From a virus: DNA of 62,746 nucleotides. The stretch lies in IMG/VR virus record IMGVR_UViG_3300044971_000798, positions 1-62,746 of that record; one strand, written 5' to 3'. A program made the translations under genes and the position numbers. Below the pieces are notes generated by a model. The model was given only the letters and a program-made list of their open reading frames with translations, was not told where the DNA came from and did not search any database. Position 1 is the stretch's first letter, and every line of letters begins with the position of its first letter. Below, piece by piece: positions 29,639-58,469 of this stretch.

Positions 29639-29667
29639 TTGACAAAACGCGGGAAGACTATTATCCT
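29639..29667 (+). promoter_or_regulatory. Strong sigma70 promoter of the glycosyltransferase cassette
   Basis: A perfect TTGACA (29639-29644) is followed after 17 bases by TATCCT (29662-29667). Only AGCGGC separates the -10 from the ATG at 29674, so transcription should begin at or next to the start codon. No Shine-Dalgarno sequence is present there, so the mRNA is probably leaderless. Confidence 0.7.
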
Positions 29668-29673
29668 AGCGGC

Positions 29674-30441
29674 ATGTCAAAGTTTGCCTACTACATTGGC
29701 GTAGACCACCGCGAACCGGATGCACTGCGAGTTACCGAGGCGTCTGTCCGTGCCTACGCCAGCAAGCCTGTCGAAGTGAAACGCTTAGAACACATCGACT
29801 TGCGCCGCCGCCAACTCTTCGACCGTCCATGGCGTATCAACGAAGACGGCACTTACACCGACGAGCGAGACGGCAAGCCATTCAGTGTACAGTTCTCCCA
29901 CACCCGTTTCCTCACGCCCATCGTCGCCAAGCTTGACGGCGTCACTGACTGGGCGCTCTTCACGGATTGCGACTGGCTCTGGCTCAATGACATCCATAAG
30001 ATTCTCCAAGAAGCTGATAGCAGCAAGACGGTGATGGTGGTACCACATCGCTTCGAACCTGACAAGACCGTCAAGATGGATGGCCAAGTCCAATCCCGCT
30101 ACAAGCGGAAGATGTGGTCGGCCCTCATGCTTTGGAACCTGAAGTCCAACAAGCTGCCCACCGTCGAGATGGTGAACGAAGCCAGCGGCAACCACCTCCA
30201 CACCTTCGGCTGGCTGCAAGACAACGACATCGGCTATCTGTCTGAACGCTGGCATTGGATTCCCAACTACAGCCCGACGACGGAAGCTGCCCAGGCCGCC
30301 GAAGATCAGAACCGCCCCATTCCGGTGGATGCTGTTCACTTCACATTCGGGCCGCCTGTGCCGGGCATGACCAATCGGGAGCCAACTCCCTTCGATAACT
30401 TCTGGACCAACGAACTCACGGACGCTTACAATGCACGCTAA
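29674..30441 (+). CDS. Glycosyltransferase, GT-A/GT8-like (255 aa)
   Basis: The protein has the GT-A pattern: an N-terminal 'YYIGVDHREPDALRVTEASV', a 'HTRFLTPIVAKLDGVTDWALF' helix and strand, and a metal-binding DxD in TDCDW (D98, D100). Later 'WSALMLWNL' and 'LQDNDIGYLSERWHWIPNY' fit the sugar-acceptor side of this fold, as in proteins acting on host surface glycans. It is cytoplasmic, without signal peptide. It overlaps the next gene by 11 bases, and its own promoter makes the pair a self-standing cassette between virion and lysis genes. Confidence 0.75.
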   Translation: MSKFAYYIGVDHREPDALRVTEASVRAYASKPVEVKRLEHIDLRRRQLFDRPWRINEDGTYTDERDGKPFSVQFSHTRFLTPIVAKLDGVTDWALFTDCDWLWLNDIHKILQEADSSKTVMVVPHRFEPDKTVKMDGQVQSRYKRKMWSALMLWNLKSNKLPTVEMVNEASGNHLHTFGWLQDNDIGYLSERWHWIPNYSPTTEAAQAAEDQNRPIPVDAVHFTFGPPVPGMTNREPTPFDNFWTNELTDAYNAR

Positions 30442-32575
30442 GATCATCACGACCATTGGCCCCAAAGGTTGGGAAACCTACGGACGCCGCTTCGCAGAAT
30501 CCTATCGCAAGTTCTGGCCTGCTGACATCCCCCTGGAGATTTGGCACCACGACCTGGACGGTAACGTCCCGTCATTCGAGGGCGTCACCTTCCGTGCATT
30601 GGAAGACACGGCTTCCTTCCATAAGCTCAAGGCGCGACTGGGTAGCGAAGCCAAAGACGGCCCGTCCCTCCAGTACTGCTTCAAGGCTGTAGCTCTGGCT
30701 TCCTCGGTAACGCCGGAACTTGACTGGATTGGGTTCATCGACGCTGACACGGAAGCTATGCGGCACGTCGACTCCCAATTGCTGGAGCAGCTTTTTGACG
30801 ATAACGTCCATCTCACCTACCTCTACCGTAAGTCTGTTGCGGAAAGCGAAGGCTCATGGTTCGCATTTAATTTGGCGACTGTCAAGGGCGCATCACTGCT
30901 GGCCGACTACTGGGGCCTGTACGATTCCTTCGAAGCCTTCCACTACAAGAAAGCCCACGACAACGCAGTCCTTGACCGCCTAGTCCTGTTGCATCGCGCC
31001 CACGGTCTTCTGGTGAAGGACCTGTCGCCGGGCGCCTTGGGTTTAGATGCGTTCCATCAATCGACCCTAGGCGCCTATATGATCCACTACAAGGGACCGG
31101 ACAAACAGACCATCGCCAACCCGGCACTGGGCGCCCCGGCCCGCTACGAAACGCTGTGCGAATTGCTGACCGCTTCCATCAAGGCGACAGGCAAAGCCAA
31201 CATCGTTGAAGTCGGCACATGGAATGGTAGCCGCGCCATCCACATGGCCGAGTGCGCCTTCGCTTCCGGCGCCACCCAAGTATCCTACGTGGGCTTCGAC
31301 ACCTTCGAAGAAGGCAACGACCGCCACTACGAAGGCCACACCAAACCACACGCCAACTCCTGGCTGGTGGGCAATCGCCTTAACAATTACAGCCGACTCA
31401 TGTCCCGCAAGGGCTTGACTTTTGACTACACTCTGATAAAAGGTAACACTCTTGAAACCCTGCCCAAGTCTGGGCAAGTAGTAAAGGAAGCCTCCTTCGC
31501 CTACATTGACGGCGGCCACTCCTACGAAACCACCAAGTCAGACTACCACCACCTGATGCACGTCCCCTATGTGGTGTTCGACGATGTGATTGCCCAGCCT
31601 GAAGAAGGCGCGCCCGAAGGCCCCATCCGCACTTGGACGGAAGCCGAAGGCCAGAAGCGCATGATCACTAGCGGCGACGGCTACGCTGGCCTGAAGCAAA
31701 CCATTTCCTTTGGGCTTGTGGTGCGGCCCGGCTTCCCAATGCCAGACCTCCGCACCCGCATCCAAGTCAAGCCCGTCGATTCCGTCGACAAGGGCGAGCA
31801 GCTTCAGCACATTGCTGAAAACGGGAAGGCCCTCCAAAAGTGGATTGGCAACTATCAGGCCCACACCAAGACCGCGATCTTCGTTAGCGCCGGGCCTACC
31901 ATTCCCCAGTACCTTGATGAAATCAAACGCAGGCAAGCTGAGGGCGCCACTGTCTTCACCGTCAAGCATGCCTTCCCTACCCTGAAGAAAGCGGGCATCA
32001 CCCCTGACTGGACCGTGATCCTGGACCCACGTCCAATCGACGGCAAGTCCACGCACGGCATTATCAGAACCGACTTGTTCGCTGGCGCCGGGCCGGAAGA
32101 TAAGTTCCTGTTTGCAACGATGACCCACCCGTCAGTACGCACCTATCTGGAAGGGAAGGGCGCCCAACTCTATGGCTGGCACGCACACACTAACGCCACG
32201 CTACAGGCCCGGCCCCCGGCCTTCGACATTGGCACGGTAGTTATGGGCGGCACTTGCTCCGCCACCCGTATCCCAATGCTGGCTTTCGTGATGGGCTTCC
32301 GGCGCTTTGACTTCTACGGCTACGACTTCTTCTACCCAGAAGAAACCAAGCAGGACGACGTGAAGCAATCCTTCATGAAGGTGACGCTGGGCGCCGACCA
32401 GAAATCCTACCTGACTACGGGCGAACTGGTCGCCGCTATGCAGGACCTAGGTCAGTGGAACAAGTGGCTAGTAGAAAACCGCATCAACGTCACGTTCCAT
32501 GGCGAAGGCGCGGGCGCGGCGATCTGGGAACAGACCGTCAACAACTACACTGCACCAACGGAGTATCCGTTCTAA
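30431..32575 (+). CDS. Three-domain protein: glycosyltransferase, SAM methyltransferase, DUF115
   Basis: Residues about 1-225 look like a GT-A glycosyltransferase with DxD at D104 and D106 (GFIDADTE). Residues about 240-390 are a class I SAM methyltransferase: motif I VEVGTWNGSRA (259-269), GFDTFEEG near 288, IDGGHSYETTKSDY (359-372) and VFDDV. Residues about 478-714 match DUF115 (MAF-type) proteins: 'AIFVSAGPTI', 'PDWTVILDPRP', 'GGTCSATRIPMLAFVMG' and 'FDFYGYDFFY'. MAF proteins transfer nonulosonic sugars to flagellin. A fusion of three sugar-modifying activities in a phage is unusual. Its stop codon overlaps the stop of the convergent gene at 32572. Confidence 0.75.
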   Translation: MHAKIITTIGPKGWETYGRRFAESYRKFWPADIPLEIWHHDLDGNVPSFEGVTFRALEDTASFHKLKARLGSEAKDGPSLQYCFKAVALASSVTPELDWIGFIDADTEAMRHVDSQLLEQLFDDNVHLTYLYRKSVAESEGSWFAFNLATVKGASLLADYWGLYDSFEAFHYKKAHDNAVLDRLVLLHRAHGLLVKDLSPGALGLDAFHQSTLGAYMIHYKGPDKQTIANPALGAPARYETLCELLTASIKATGKANIVEVGTWNGSRAIHMAECAFASGATQVSYVGFDTFEEGNDRHYEGHTKPHANSWLVGNRLNNYSRLMSRKGLTFDYTLIKGNTLETLPKSGQVVKEASFAYIDGGHSYETTKSDYHHLMHVPYVVFDDVIAQPEEGAPEGPIRTWTEAEGQKRMITSGDGYAGLKQTISFGLVVRPGFPMPDLRTRIQVKPVDSVDKGEQLQHIAENGKALQKWIGNYQAHTKTAIFVSAGPTIPQYLDEIKRRQAEGATVFTVKHAFPTLKKAGITPDWTVILDPRPIDGKSTHGIIRTDLFAGAGPEDKFLFATMTHPSVRTYLEGKGAQLYGWHAHTNATLQARPPAFDIGTVVMGGTCSATRIPMLAFVMGFRRFDFYGYDFFYPEETKQDDVKQSFMKVTLGADQKSYLTTGELVAAMQDLGQWNKWLVENRINVTFHGEGAGAAIWEQTVNNYTAPTEYPF

Positions 32576-32817
32576 CGGAACCGCTTGGCTAACTTGGCGG
32601 CGGAGGCGGGTTGCTTTGAGAATTGCTTACCCGCTTTTGTCGCCTTCCTTTTGGCAGCAGACGACGCAGCATACGTACTAGCTGGCATAGCTTTGATTGC
32701 AGCTTCTGGTAGATAGCGTTCACCTGTAGCTCCCGGTCCTTGGGTTGATGGCTTACCAGACTTGGTTCGCCACTTTTGTTTCGTCCAATCAACAAGCGAT
32801 TTCTGTGGGGCCTTCAT
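32572..32817 (-). CDS. Small basic phage protein, DUF5872-like (81 aa)
   Basis: The protein reads LVDWTKQKWRTKSGKPSTQG then 'GERYLPEAAIKAMPASTYAAS' and ends in a Lys/Ala-rich basic tail. This matches the phage DUF5872 family as I remember it. It is the last gene of the leftward block; its start shares ATGA with the gene at 32814. The stop codon overlaps that of the opposite-strand gene. Function unknown; the charge suggests nucleic acid or capsid binding. Confidence 0.65.
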   Translation of the reverse strand: MKAPQKSLVDWTKQKWRTKSGKPSTQGPGATGERYLPEAAIKAMPASTYAASSAAKRKATKAGKQFSKQPASAAKLAKRFR

Positions 32818-36609: not shown

Positions 36610-36638
36610 ATTATACTACAGTTAGTTCAATCTTTCAA
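36610..36638 (-). promoter_or_regulatory. Sigma70 promoter for the lysis and basic-protein genes
   Basis: On the minus strand, TTGAAA (36638-36633) and a perfect TATAAT (36615-36610) are 17 bases apart. The -10 is only six bases (GGAGGC) from the ATG at 36603, so RNA would begin near the start codon. The -35 lies in the end of the phosphoesterase gene. It allows late expression of the lysis genes apart from the long early transcript. Confidence 0.7.
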
Positions 36639-39250: not shown

Positions 39251-39446
39251 TGTATCCACTCCTTGCGTTTGATACGGTTTGCACAATGTTAGAACGGATG
39301 ACCCAGATGTTGGTTCCGTTCGAGGGGTCGATTGCCTTCTCAAGCCACACGCGGACGATGTAGCCGCGCTTCCGCCACCAGTTCTTGATGTCGGCCATGA
39401 GCTTGTAGTTGGCTGCTCGATCACTTAGGTAGTCATGCTTTGCCAT
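39240..39446 (-). CDS. Small early protein (68 aa), unknown
   Basis: A compact sequence with 'LMADIKNWWRKRGYIVRVWL' and 'GTNIWVIRSNIVQ' that overlaps the polymerase gene's end by 14 bases and the next gene by 11. The WW and basic content suggest a small winged-helix or nucleic-acid-binding fold, but this is only a guess. Confidence 0.6.
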   Translation of the reverse strand: MAKHDYLSDRAANYKLMADIKNWWRKRGYIVRVWLEKAIDPSNGTNIWVIRSNIVQTVSNARSGYSVE

Positions 39447-40872
39447 TGGACCTCCATTTCTTCAGGCCCCCCGGATTGCTGGTGCTGGCCTTACCCCAGT
39501 TATATCCGATTTCCACATCGAATGGAATAACTATTTCGCGTTCTATTCCCTTGATGTCTTTGATCGGAAACGGAAAGTTAAGGCAGTCAAGAACTTCTGG
39601 CAGCAACTGGTCGGCCTTGTCAATGCGGACCTGACCAAGCACGGCATCGTGTAAGTTCAGTAGTATCTGGACGTCGGCGCCGGGCTTACCTTCGAAGCGT
39701 TCCCACAAACGGTAGATGCCCACGTTCATCAGAACGCCGACACAGTGCTGGGGTACGAAGGCAATGGCTTCGCGCAGGGTAGCATCGTCCCAGCGGCGGG
39801 ACCAGAAGGTGCGGCGTATGCCAAAGGGACTGACCAGATAGCCCTTGGTCTGTAGCTCATGGGCTACCCACACATGCCAGTCGCTGATGCCAGGAAACCG
39901 CTTGAAGTACTGCGCTTGGAAGGCTTCGGCAACGGCAGTCTCCACCTTCATCTGCTGTGCCAGAGTAAAGGGCTTTCCATAGTAGTTACTTCCGTGGGCG
40001 CCCCGCTTCGTGATGTCACGATATGAATAGCCACGGTAGTACTCACGTTCAGCCAACTCGCGTTCAGGCGGGAAGCCAAAGACCATGGAAGCGACCATTG
40101 TGTGTGAGTCACCACCTTCAACTGCGGCGATGTAGTTTTCATCTCCCGAAAGATACGCAACAATCCGCGCTTCTGCGCCCTGTTGATCAGAATAGAATAG
40201 TACGTAGCCGGGGTCCGCGACAAAGCAGGTGCGCGCTTCTTTCGGTATGTTCTGAAGGTTACTCCCGATACGGAACGGATGTTCACTAGACGAAAGTCGG
40301 AACGTCTCAGTCCCCGCAATATTGAACGAAGCGTGGAAGCGATTGGTTGGCGACAGCTTCTTGGAAAGGAATTCAATCTGCTTTTCAAGGTCGCGGATGC
40401 GGAGGATGTGGTTGGCGAAGAAGGCGCCGCGTGGGTATTCGCGGGTGATGCGTTCAAGGATTTCACGGTCTGCTCCTACTTTGGTTTCCCCCTTCTTGGA
40501 TTTGGTTTGCTCGGGGATGGCAAGGAATTCGTAGAACAGGGTGGTAAGCTGGGGCGTGGAGTTGTGATTGATGGTCGTACCCCACAATGCTTCACACACT
40601 AGATCGAAGTTGGCTTGCACCTTGTCGGCGCGGAGGCGCAGCCCTTCGACTAGACGGTCGCGCCGTTCGGTGTCGATCTGTACGCCACGTCGCATCATGG
40701 TAAGGATGGGACCCAGCATCAGTTCGCTGTAGCGGTAGGTTGTCGCGGCCCAGTCAGGCAAAAGGCCCTCATCATATATTTCTTTGAGGGCCATTGTCTG
40801 CATGGTATCGAGCGAGTTGTAAACTATCTCCTGCGTTTCAGGAGTCGGGGTCAGGTCCGTCAGTATCTTCAT
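39433..40872 (-). CDS. Family A DNA polymerase, polymerase half
   Basis: This 479-residue protein is the polymerase domain alone. Motif A is YSDQQGAEAR (227-236, metal-binding D229), motif B is KRGAHGSNYYG (289-299) and motif C is LHDAVLG (H408, D409, A410). In most family A enzymes motif C is HDE; here E is A. The exonuclease half is coded separately at 41707-42651, with an HNH gene and another small gene in between. The first residues (VYNSLDTMQTMALKEIYDEG) are normally internal, right after the exonuclease, which shows that this is a split polymerase. The two halves probably assemble. Confidence 0.9.
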   Translation of the reverse strand: MKILTDLTPTPETQEIVYNSLDTMQTMALKEIYDEGLLPDWAATTYRYSELMLGPILTMMRRGVQIDTERRDRLVEGLRLRADKVQANFDLVCEALWGTTINHNSTPQLTTLFYEFLAIPEQTKSKKGETKVGADREILERITREYPRGAFFANHILRIRDLEKQIEFLSKKLSPTNRFHASFNIAGTETFRLSSSEHPFRIGSNLQNIPKEARTCFVADPGYVLFYSDQQGAEARIVAYLSGDENYIAAVEGGDSHTMVASMVFGFPPERELAEREYYRGYSYRDITKRGAHGSNYYGKPFTLAQQMKVETAVAEAFQAQYFKRFPGISDWHVWVAHELQTKGYLVSPFGIRRTFWSRRWDDATLREAIAFVPQHCVGVLMNVGIYRLWERFEGKPGADVQILLNLHDAVLGQVRIDKADQLLPEVLDCLNFPFPIKDIKGIEREIVIPFDVEIGYNWGKASTSNPGGLKKWRSNGKA

Positions 40873-41164
40873 GCGGCTCGCCTTTCAGGAACGTGTTTCG
40901 CATACGCGACAGGAGGTGCAGAGTCAAGGGCGGTCCTTCGTAGGACTTGGCAAAGCGCCTGACGCGGGTGGGGTCTAGGTCGGCGGCCAAGCAGACTTCG
41001 TCAAAGTTCTGGGCGGTCGTGCCAAACTCTGCCGTAAGCCATGCATGGGCCTGCCGTTTGTTGACGTGAGCAACAGGCGTCTTGGGTTCGGACGTAGCGT
41101 CAATCAACGCTTGAATAATCACGCTCGCCCATAGGCGCCGGATACTCGCATCATCTTCAGTCAT
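40838..41164 (-). CDS. Small protein inside the split polymerase locus (108 aa)
   Basis: The pattern 'IRRLWASVIIQALIDATSEP', 'AHAWLTAEFG' and 'FDEVCLAADLDPTRVRRFAK' matches small proteins of unknown function common in alphaproteobacterial phages and prophages. It overlaps the start of the polymerase half by 35 bases, so the polymerase half is coupled to it. Whether it came in with the HNH gene or was there before is unclear; its base composition looks like the phage, not like the HNH gene. Confidence 0.65.
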   Translation of the reverse strand: MTEDDASIRRLWASVIIQALIDATSEPKTPVAHVNKRQAHAWLTAEFGTTAQNFDEVCLAADLDPTRVRRFAKSYEGPPLTLHLLSRMRNTFLKGEPHEDTDGPDPDS

Positions 41165-41177
41165 TTGTAATTCAGTT

Positions 41178-41717
41178 TCATTTAAACGTGTTACCTTTCC
41201 GTATGTTTTCTGTGGCTTCTATCACTTGCAAATTCCAAGGGACATGAAGCCCGCAGACTAGTGCATTGCTTAATGGTACTATGTGATCAACATGATACGA
41301 TATTCCTATGGTATCTGTCAAGTGTTTAGCTATTAGATAGAATGCTTTTAATTGAAGTTTATCAACCCATTTAGGGCAAGCTTGTTTCTTTATAGCTCTC
41401 CGCCTATTTACCCTTTCTAAATTGTTTATTGGATTTTTATTAGACCACTCACGAGAAGCTTGTCTGCACTTTTCTCTATTGTTATTTTGCCATTCACGTT
41501 GGCGCTGTTTTCTTTTATTGTCGGTTTTCCAACGCGATCTGCTTTGTTCATTTATAGATTGCCTGTTTTGTTTAGAATACTCACGCGACCAAACAGCGTG
41601 GCAAGTGTGGCACTGTCCGGTTTTACTATACCGAATCTTGGTGCCACACTTCTTACAGGGATTTTGGCTTGTATAAAACATGATTCCCTGTTGTAAAGAT
41701 TCTTTTCTAGTCAACAC
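41178..41717 (-). CDS. HNH homing-type endonuclease splitting the DNA polymerase gene
   Basis: Two cysteine pairs near the N-terminus (CKKCGTKI and CHTCHAVW) make a zinc ribbon. A very basic helical middle (KRKQRQREWQNNNREKCRQ) follows, and the C-terminus has the HNH core YHVDHIVPLS, 'LHVPWNLQVIEATENIRKG'. The gene is clearly more AT-rich than its neighbours, a sign of recent arrival. It starts within the last codons of the exonuclease half (GTG at 41717; an ATG at 41681 is the alternative). Such nucleases cut intact alleles and spread themselves. Confidence 0.88.
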   Translation of the reverse strand: MLTRKESLQQGIMFYTSQNPCKKCGTKIRYSKTGQCHTCHAVWSREYSKQNRQSINEQSRSRWKTDNKRKQRQREWQNNNREKCRQASREWSNKNPINNLERVNRRRAIKKQACPKWVDKLQLKAFYLIAKHLTDTIGISYHVDHIVPLSNALVCGLHVPWNLQVIEATENIRKGNTFK

Positions 41718-42651
41718 TTCCAGCCTTATTAAACTCTTTCTTAGCTTTTGTACGAAGGTGTTTCCAAGCCCTGGTCGGTATGTGCATTGATGCTAGAAAA
41801 CCTAAAGATTTTTCCCACTCTGGTTGCCACGCATGGTGCCTAAGCATGGTATCAAATATGGGTCCCTTGGGTTTAATACCATACGCATCAAGGTAAGTCA
41901 AATCGAAGGTGGCATTGTGGAATCCCCAACCTAGGTCGGGGCGCTGCGCCAGATACCAAAGCCACAACCAGATGTCGCGTTCGTTCTGCTCTGACCAAAT
42001 GCTTTCGTATGCACGATCTTCTAGCTGCACATAAAGACATTCGGTTGAGGAGGTGGCGACCGAGAACTCCGTGATGCGGCAAGCCTTGTTGGTTTCTACA
42101 TCGAATACGATTTCGTCTTTGATGTAGCGGGTGGCGAAGTCGTATAGGTCGGCTACGTTTTCGGGTAGGAATATAGTCCGGTCCTTGTGGGCCAGACGCT
42201 GCTTGACTTTACGCATGGCGGATACGACCACGGGCCGCTCGGCCCAAGCCATGCGCGCAAAGATGGTGGGCGAATACGAAGGCACCACTTGCAAGCCCTT
42301 GACAAAGGGACTGTCGATATGTGTGCCACGGAAAGTATCCAGCTTGGTTTCGCCCGTCAGGCAGAACATAGCGTGTTGCCCTAGGGTCAGGGCCATGTCG
42401 TAGCCTTGCAGGTCAGCGCGTAGCTTGGCACGGTCAGCTTCTGCCAGTTGCGTGAGGGGGCCGCCCGGCTTGTTGCCGACGAATAGCGTGGGCCACTTGG
42501 CAGTATAGGCGCGGAAGGCAGTGAAGGTGCCGGAAGGCACAAGCCCCGCAGCACCTAACAGTTCTTGCGTAACCTTCCACTCCCACTCTGATAGGGGGTG
42601 GCCAGTCATTGCGTCAACGGAAGGCCAATCAAGTACCAGGGCGATCTTCAA
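41707..42651 (-). CDS. DNA polymerase exonuclease half with UDG-like N-terminus
   Basis: I place the start at a TTG (42651) with GGAG seven bases upstream; residues before it in the same frame are unlike protein. Residues about 1-150 resemble the uracil-DNA-glycosylase-like domain found at the start of SPO1-type phage polymerases ('MALTLGQHAMFCLTGE', 'FRGTHIDS', 'VVPSYSPTIFAR'). Residues about 180-290 are a DnaQ-type 3'-5' exonuclease: ExoI DVETN (D184, E186), ExoII NATFD (246-250) and 'DTMLRHHAWQP'. It ends EFNKAGSVD where a normal polymerase would go on into the polymerase domain. ExoIII was not clearly seen. Confidence 0.8.
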   Translation of the reverse strand: MKIALVLDWPSVDAMTGHPLSEWEWKVTQELLGAAGLVPSGTFTAFRAYTAKWPTLFVGNKPGGPLTQLAEADRAKLRADLQGYDMALTLGQHAMFCLTGETKLDTFRGTHIDSPFVKGLQVVPSYSPTIFARMAWAERPVVVSAMRKVKQRLAHKDRTIFLPENVADLYDFATRYIKDEIVFDVETNKACRITEFSVATSSTECLYVQLEDRAYESIWSEQNERDIWLWLWYLAQRPDLGWGFHNATFDLTYLDAYGIKPKGPIFDTMLRHHAWQPEWEKSLGFLASMHIPTRAWKHLRTKAKKEFNKAGSVD

Positions 42652-42823
42652 GGGGAAGCTCCATCTGCATGGGGTCTGGCATACGATTGACAACAGGTAT
42701 GTTTTTCCAATCACCATGTTTGTCTTGGTATTGAATAGCATACTTCGAAGGGTAGGGTATGCCTTCTTCGTTGCGGCTCCACTCTTGAAGAACGCGCAGG
42801 GTAGGCACGGTGTTGCGGCACAT
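42629..42823 (-). CDS. Small early protein (64 aa), unknown
   Basis: The protein CRNTVPTLRVLQEWSRNEEG then 'YPSKYAIQYQDKHGDWKNIPV' is a plausible small beta-type protein. Its start overlaps the previous stop (TGATG) and its end covers the ribosome site and TTG start of the exonuclease half, so the two are coupled. No function can be given. Confidence 0.65.
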   Translation of the reverse strand: MCRNTVPTLRVLQEWSRNEEGIPYPSKYAIQYQDKHGDWKNIPVVNRMPDPMQMELPLEDRPGT

Positions 42824-57226: not shown

Positions 57227-57435
57227 CTGACGACACCATGGAACTCACCCACCAAGATTTGGTCGAGGCGCTGGATCGGATCATCCGTCAGCTTGAAGTC
57301 CTTGACAACGCAGCCATCATGAAGTCCCTGAACCTGGGCATGTTCGATATTGACGAGATGATCAAGATCGTCGTACTGTACAAAAGTAAGGTGGTCGTTG
57401 ACGCCCACAAGCAAGGAGTTCTGGAATGGAAGTAA
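57223..57435 (+). CDS. Small helical protein (70 aa)
   Basis: The sequence 'LTHQDLVEALDRIIRQLEVL', 'MFDIDEMIKIVVLYKSKVVV' is a compact helical protein coupled to both neighbours: it starts on ATGA with the upstream gene and its end overlaps the thyX start by ten bases. Function unknown; possibly a partner of the upstream protein. Confidence 0.65.
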   Translation: MTDDTMELTHQDLVEALDRIIRQLEVLDNAAIMKSLNLGMFDIDEMIKIVVLYKSKVVVDAHKQGVLEWK

Positions 57436-58469
57436 CATATCTTAGTCACATGGGTGATGATCGCATGGTTGTGAACGCTGCCCGCGTGTCCTTCGGCAAG
57501 CGCACCCAAGAGTTCCGGCCCGGCAAGGACGACCGCCTGCTGGCCTTCCTAGCGCGCCACAAGCATGAACTGCCGTTTGCCCACCCCCACGTCAGCTTCC
57601 ACTTCAAGGCGCCCATCTTTGTGGCCCGGCAACTGGCCAAGCACCAAGTAGGCTTCGTGTGGTCGGAGATCAGCCGTCGCTACGTCAAGGATCGGCCCGA
57701 ATTTTATATTCCGTCCTACTGGCGCAAGGCGGCAGAAAATGTAAAGCAGGGCAGTTCTTTGGAACCTGTGGATATTTCTCCGCGTGGTAAGTGTAATCGT
57801 TGTGGTATACCTGTCAGCTATCCTAAACGGCTTTGGTGTAGCTCTGAGTGTCAAACGCTTTCTTGGCGAGAAAACAACCGCTATGCGTATATATTCTCGA
57901 AATGGGGCGCCGCTGCCAAGTTTGAGAATATTCCTTTTACTATCACGCCGGACGATCTTGCGTGGCCCGATAAGTGTCCGTATCTAGATATCCAGCTTGA
58001 TTACACTCCCGGCGACAAAAACGACAATAAGGCATCTCTGGATAAAATTGTGCCTGCTCTTGGTTACGTTCCAGGGAATGTGCAAATTGTTTCTTTGCTT
58101 GCCAATAAGATGAAAAGTTCTGCGTCCTTGGAGCAGATTAAGACTTTTGCAAAAAACGCCTTGTTTATTCACGGTGGGGTTTTTGCAGAAACTTCTCACT
58201 CCTACGCAGATTATTGTGAAAAGGCTGCTGACCTTTATGTGGAACTTATCTCACAGGGTGTTTGCGCTGAACAGGCTCGCATGGTATTGCCCCAAGCGCA
58301 ACTAACGGAATGGCACTGGACCGGAAGTCTGCTGGGCTGGAGCCGGGTCTGGAACCTGCGCGTAAAGCCTGATGCCCAGGCCGAAACCCGTGAAATTGTG
58401 CAACTAATTGGGCCAACCATGAAAGCTTTATTTCCGTTTTCTTGGTCTGCTTTGACTGGCGACCGCTAG
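57426..58469 (+). CDS. thyX: FAD-dependent thymidylate synthase with inserted endonuclease domain
   Basis: Residues 1-111 and 255-347 together make a normal-sized ThyX: 'HPHVSFHFKAPIFVARQLAK', the signature region HQVGFVWSEISRRYV (residues 73-87), and after the insert 'YVELISQGVCAEQARMVLPQ' and 'WHWTGSLLGWSRVWNLRV'. ThyX makes dTMP from dUMP with folate, NADPH and FAD. Residues about 112-254 are an in-frame insert with CNRCG and CSSEC zinc-ribbon pairs, 'CPYLDIQLDYTPG' and 'SLDKIVPALGYVPGNVQIVS', related to the HNH protein at 60565. The insert is more AT-rich. No intein splice motifs are seen, so it is either an embedded domain or is removed at RNA level. Confidence 0.88.
   Translation: MEVTYLSHMGDDRMVVNAARVSFGKRTQEFRPGKDDRLLAFLARHKHELPFAHPHVSFHFKAPIFVARQLAKHQVGFVWSEISRRYVKDRPEFYIPSYWRKAAENVKQGSSLEPVDISPRGKCNRCGIPVSYPKRLWCSSECQTLSWRENNRYAYIFSKWGAAAKFENIPFTITPDDLAWPDKCPYLDIQLDYTPGDKNDNKASLDKIVPALGYVPGNVQIVSLLANKMKSSASLEQIKTFAKNALFIHGGVFAETSHSYADYCEKAADLYVELISQGVCAEQARMVLPQAQLTEWHWTGSLLGWSRVWNLRVKPDAQAETREIVQLIGPTMKALFPFSWSALTGDR

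Follow-up and report, generated by a model that had tools for sequence, protein, structure and literature searches.

Which glycan could be built, and on which acceptor, by a viral pair of sugar-modifying genes, one of which joins a glycosyltransferase, a methyltransferase and a MAF/DUF115-type domain in a single protein? The pair lies in a 62.7-kb viral contig (IMG/VR record IMGVR_UViG_3300044971_000798), the whole of which was analysed and is here called the window. The left side of the window encodes TerL, portal, major head protein, SU10-type adaptors and DNA ejection proteins, the right side carries lysis, replication and nucleotide genes, and the cassette is found between an ejection protein gene and the lysis genes. 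The TerL is closest to those of the podophages HTVC023P, HTVC027P and DSL-LC04 (about 36-39%). In the reading that we favour, with a probability of roughly 45%, virion proteins receive a glycan that is O-methylated and possibly capped with a nonulosonate; modification of the host surface is a close rival.

Both open reading frames expected from the original prediction are present on the + strand: a GT-A-type glycosyltransferase of 255 aa (29674-30441) and a fusion protein of 714 aa (30431-32575). The fusion ATG lies inside the end of the glycosyltransferase gene, and this 11-nt overlap (30431-30441, + strand), which is retained as an overlap or near-overlap in most relatives, suggests coupled translation. 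The cassette is preceded by a sigma-70-type promoter (29639-29667, + strand), which is the only exact match to TTGACA-N17-TATCCT in the window. A consensus scan of the window found two matches for 1.3 expected, a count that alone is not distinguishable from chance. Of 20 relatives, 18 retain both hexamers (TATCCT or TATGCT in the second), the spacer and the gap of 6-7 nt to the ATG, many of them with differing upstream flanks; in the two most distant ones (L024 and L041) the promoter is degenerate. This recurrence at the same place beside diverging flanks argues that the promoter, already singled out in the original prediction, is real. Since it ends 6 nt 5' of the ATG in the window and 6-7 nt in the relatives, the transcript would start with the ATG itself or immediately beside it, giving a leaderless message. 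Separately, a second promoter-like site (TTGAAA-17-TATAAT, 36610-36638, - strand) ends 6 nt before the ATG of an 84-aa ORF, in a leaderless arrangement like that of the cassette.

The first protein, predicted as a GT-A enzyme, matches PHROG 28018 (E 9e-50, profile positions 5-241 of 262), and both aspartates of its DxD motif at residues 98-100 (D98 and D100) are invariant. It is 39% identical to gp129 of CcrColossus, annotated as "nucleotide-diphospho-sugar transferase", and shares about 33-40% identity with GT-A-type proteins encoded by Caulobacter and Pelagibacter phages; a profile search of PDB sequences gave nothing credible. Comparison of its profile with that of the GT-A part of the fusion found no significant similarity, and a recent duplication is therefore not supported.

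The N-terminal domain of the fusion (residues 1-229; 30431-31117, + strand) has no match in Pfam, PHROG or PDB sequences. Modelled alone from a 34-sequence alignment (pLDDT 88.6), it matches GT-A glycosyltransferases over its whole length, with an E-value of 1e-9 for alpha-1,3-galactosyltransferase and Z-scores of 15.2 for BoGT6a, 14.8 for glycogenin and 14.8 for a PBCV-1 capsid-glycan glycosyltransferase (2p72, which we take to be the first domain of A064R), the last at only 7-8% identity. GT6 and GT8 enzymes tie in Z, and neither CAZy family is matched in sequence. The DxD motif (D104 and D106) is invariant in all 34 sequences, whose groups are only about 20-25% alike, and the same alignment, which includes unfused phage homologues, also keeps R133, E140, N147, H176-D177 and H219xK221-G222. 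The domain is thus predicted, on its confident model, to be a GT-A fold glycosyltransferase with a DxD motif.

The central domain (residues about 235-434; 31133-31732, + strand) contains Methyltransf_24 (PF13578) at residues 259-377, above cut-off (E 5.2e-9); the Pfam TylF family (PF05711) scores 13.4 bits, under its cut-off of 23, and the profile search of PDB sequences found nothing credible. The full-length model of the fusion is poor overall (pLDDT 62) and matches were taken only from its better parts. There, the central domain resembles SpnH (Z 13.8), NovP (13.3) and MycF (13.3), the range including CalS11 being 12.5-13.8, with other class I O-methyltransferases and TrmR scoring like the sugar O-methyltransferases. 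It shares with these four TylF-type enzymes the fold and acidic residues at comparable motif positions; they are antibiotic tailoring enzymes, whereas the phage domain misses the TylF cut-off. The residues E260VGTWNGS (motif I), D360GGHSY and D384D385 are invariant. We therefore predict a SAM-dependent sugar O-methyltransferase of the Methyltransf_24/TylF fold.

The C-terminal domain (residues 458-700; 31802-32530, + strand) is a MAF/DUF115-type transferase domain by PF01973, which matches residues 458-637 with an E-value of 6.4e-16 and 59 bits for a cut-off of 34.6. The NCBIfam PseD model gives a partial match at residues 468-640 (E 3.2e-8), far below its cut-off. The best solved match is the Magnetospirillum Maf 5mu5 (Z 16.6, 199 residues, rmsd 3.8), and Maf is also the only credible profile match among PDB sequences; archaeal MptE (8sd5), a pterin pyrophosphokinase of PF01973, reaches a Z of 13.2. 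Conserved motifs are S486AGPT, G522ITPDWTVILDP and G606GTCSATR...G630YDFFYP; all three domains of the fusion keep their catalytic motifs. The catalytic PF01973 domain is common to the phage protein and to the Maf flagellin glycosyltransferases (Magnetospirillum AMB-1 5mu5, PseD and CbMaf), and the structural match covers this domain in 5mu5 (residues 268-500). Outside it the architectures differ: model residue 700 corresponds to residue 500 of 5mu5, and the phage protein ends at 714 without the C-terminal helical domain of the 666-residue Maf chain, while a complete methyltransferase, itself behind a GT-A domain, occupies the position of the degenerate Rossmann-like N-terminal domain of Maf. 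A Foldseek alignment of the phage-encoded fusion with 5mu5 spans 570 columns with a poor overall superposition. The order glycosyltransferase, methyltransferase, DUF115/MAF that had been proposed was thus recovered: Pfam, searched with 30431-32575, found both the methyltransferase and the MAF/DUF115 domain above cut-offs, and the GT-A domain was recognised by modelling.

Further complete copies of the fusion number at least 26 (25 at 71-98% identity, a few contigs being near-identical, plus L041 at 63%), and about a dozen partial copies were also found; all are in uncultured viral contigs, podovirus-like for the complete ones. Every contig long enough to show it has the order ejection protein, GT-A enzyme, fusion. 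Relative to the window, the relatives have a median identity of 79% in the fusion and 77% in the GT-A gene but 51% in the adjacent ejection protein, and the endolysin is often not recognisable in them. Each fusion domain is under strong purifying selection (dN/dS 0.06-0.20). A TerL scan for cassette-free relatives returned none: the fusion is present in six of six TerL-bearing contigs that reach the site, and contigs without a match end before it by coordinates. Conservation exceeding that of the ejection protein gene, together with the strong purifying selection, indicates that the cassette is a core gene of a phage clade and not a swapped-in extra. The description of the cassette as self-standing holds for transcription, but the cassette itself is a fixed core element of its clade.

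Outside this clade, two short-peptide scans of 84,980 genomes, which detect close relatives only, returned no bacterial or prophage copy. Among 50,697 annotated phage records nothing matched beyond the first fusion domain, the methyltransferase and MAF parts having no match at E <= 1e-3, and no stand-alone relative of either part was seen in other loci at E <= 0.01. No paper combining a phage with this glycosyltransferase, methyltransferase and DUF115/MAF combination was found in the literature search, so neither these records nor the papers searched contradict the view that no phage protein with this triple order had been described. The families are known ones; with their domains fused in a combination not found elsewhere, they make up a variant form of the glycosylation modules of phages.

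Unfused counterparts occur in other phages. In the Pelagibacter phage Mosig (genes 00188-00191), homologues of the GT-A enzyme and of the first fusion domain (33% and 25% identity) are encoded by adjacent genes beside two FkbM methyltransferases; in contrast with the phage fusion, all genes are separate, the glycosyltransferase order is reversed and the methyltransferases are FkbM-type, and the Mosig genome has no PF01973 protein. In L128 and L131, a homologue of the first domain belongs to a gene row that also encodes a TPR protein, a methyltransferase and a DegT sugar aminotransferase (L128:4640-9118 and L131:4668-9188, clusters beside structural genes), directly behind an SU10-type major capsid gene in L128. 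The TPR protein and glycosyltransferase of these clusters recall the flagellin enzyme FlmG (PMC7591256). In the Caulobacter phage CcrColossus (gp126-gp131), a tail gene on one side and the endolysin on the other flank the homologue of the 29674-30441 product and, near it, a stand-alone PF01973-like, "sialyltransferase-like" protein, but here again as separate genes, with a GT9 enzyme instead, and the methyltransferase and N-terminal glycosyltransferase were not found there. The PF01973-like protein of this phiCbK-like phage (gp126, L137:3611-4261) adjoins the tail gene and matches with an E-value of 1.5e-7, just below cut-off. The fusion thus unites components that are found separately in the glycosylation clusters of these phages. 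A functional parallel is A064R of the Chlorella virus PBCV-1, in which two glycosyltransferases and a sugar methyltransferase acting on the capsid glycan are united in one three-domain chain (PMC7019647). It differs from the phage fusion in its GT-GT-MT order, its rhamnosyltransferases, its algal virus origin and the lack of a MAF domain, and the resemblance is functional only.

Starting from the observed folds, catalytic motifs, co-location and purifying selection, we infer the donor sugars, the order of the steps and the acceptor as follows. Both proteins would be made together from a message that host RNA polymerase starts at the promoter of the cassette, for a phage-encoded assembly of a glycan in the cytoplasm. 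Each of the two GT-A units, the 255-aa enzyme and the N-terminal part of the fusion, would attach a sugar of hexose type taken from a nucleotide donor; O-methylation of a sugar would fall to the central domain, and the MAF/GT42-like domain would transfer an acidic sugar, nonulosonic acid or Kdo, in CMP-activated form. The latter would have to be supplied by the host, since no nonulosonate-synthesis gene was seen among the window genes scanned. Fusion would allow one protein to carry out consecutive steps, as in A064R. The cassette proteins have no hydrophobic stretch suggesting a membrane protein, and soluble enzymes that each keep their catalytic motifs point to a short glycan, carrying an O-methyl group and an acidic sugar, that is put together in the cytoplasm. 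The likeliest acceptor would be one or more virion proteins of the phage, favoured by the position among virion genes, the core conservation and the A064R precedent; the location of the cassette and of its unfused relatives beside virion genes (ejection, major capsid, tail) counts for the same acceptor. The sigma-70 promoter counts against it, as it makes early expression possible, which virion decoration does not need. Decoration of the phage's own particle is compatible with the evidence and remains the favoured reading. The more specific scenario in which a Maf-type catalytic domain was freed from flagellin and turned to virion-protein glycosylation (O-methylated, nonulosonate- or Kdo-capped), a trait then fixed throughout an uncultured podovirus clade, is on balance rather unlikely.

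The same enzymes could instead act during infection on a glycan of the host surface (LPS core, O-antigen or capsule) and change it, the added sugars and methyl cap masking the receptor and thereby blocking superinfection or keeping progeny from sticking to debris. We hold this to be a serious, somewhat less probable alternative, kept strong by the independent host-type promoter, which with the leaderless message suits early expression. GT6/GT8-like, GT42-like and sugar O-methyltransferase folds are common in surface glycan synthesis, peripheral enzymes of the GT8 and GT42 fold classes can act on the LPS core, so that the lack of membrane segments leaves a host-surface acceptor possible, and core conservation also fits receptor masking. 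However, no membrane flippase or Gtr-type protein lies beside the cassette, which is fixed and conserved and not variable, and which sits among virion genes; its unfused relatives adjoin capsid genes.

Glycosylation of host flagellin by the MAF domain, altering motility or blocking flagellotropic phages, had been suggested at the outset and now seems improbable as the natural role. Among solved structures the domain is most like a Maf that modifies flagellin, PseD matches in part, and the GT-A enzyme has homologues in phiCbK-like Caulobacter phages, described as related to flagellotropic phages (PMC9266447). The Maf match is nevertheless limited to the catalytic domain, and the missing C-terminal helical domain, the part that has been compared with flagellin and FliS (PMC11339370), speaks against a flagellin target, as does the absence of any flagellar gene nearby. 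Also improbable, and rated marginally lower, is the reading in which the PF01973 domain works like the pyrophosphokinase MptE, or activates nucleotides, and so readies a donor for the glycosyltransferase domains: PF01973 includes MptE, and among 14 control genomes matches to this family were seen only in archaea, but Maf is the better match in Z and in residues aligned, and the context is one of glycosylation without pterin genes. MAF activity is therefore the more probable of these two readings. Finally, glycosylation of modified bases in the phage's own DNA is very improbable: phages do use glycosyltransferases on hydroxymethylated bases and the window encodes a dUTPase and ThyX, but no hydroxymethylase or base-modification gene was seen there, we know of no role of MAF and sugar methyltransferase domains in DNA glycosylation, and it is the virion module, and not the replication module, that contains the cassette.

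To our knowledge, few phages have been described whose particles are glycosylated, mycobacteriophage capsids being one example. A precedent for virion decoration is given by the capsid glycans of mycobacteriophage Che8 (cited in PMC11256854). A compact two-gene core cassette in an environmental podovirus clade, paralleled in other phages by unfused clusters next to capsid and tail genes, suggests that decoration with sugars by phages is commoner than annotated. As a tool for methylated or sialic-acid-like protein glycans the cassette would be small and testable, and if the host surface were the target it would be a superinfection-exclusion system of unusual build.

Some other features of the window deserve mention. 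A small basic protein of 81 aa (32572-32817, - strand), without a Pfam match, converges on the fusion gene and has a median identity of 93% in relatives, above that of the cassette. DNA polymerase A is split (39433-42741, - strand) into an exonuclease ORF (41707-42741) and a polymerase ORF (39433-40872), with two unassigned ORFs of 179 and 108 aa between them. In the ThyX ORF (57426-58469, + strand; PHROG 3322/1035), Thy1 is matched in two pieces separated by an endonuclease-like insert (residues about 119-248), possibly an intein or an in-frame homing endonuclease.
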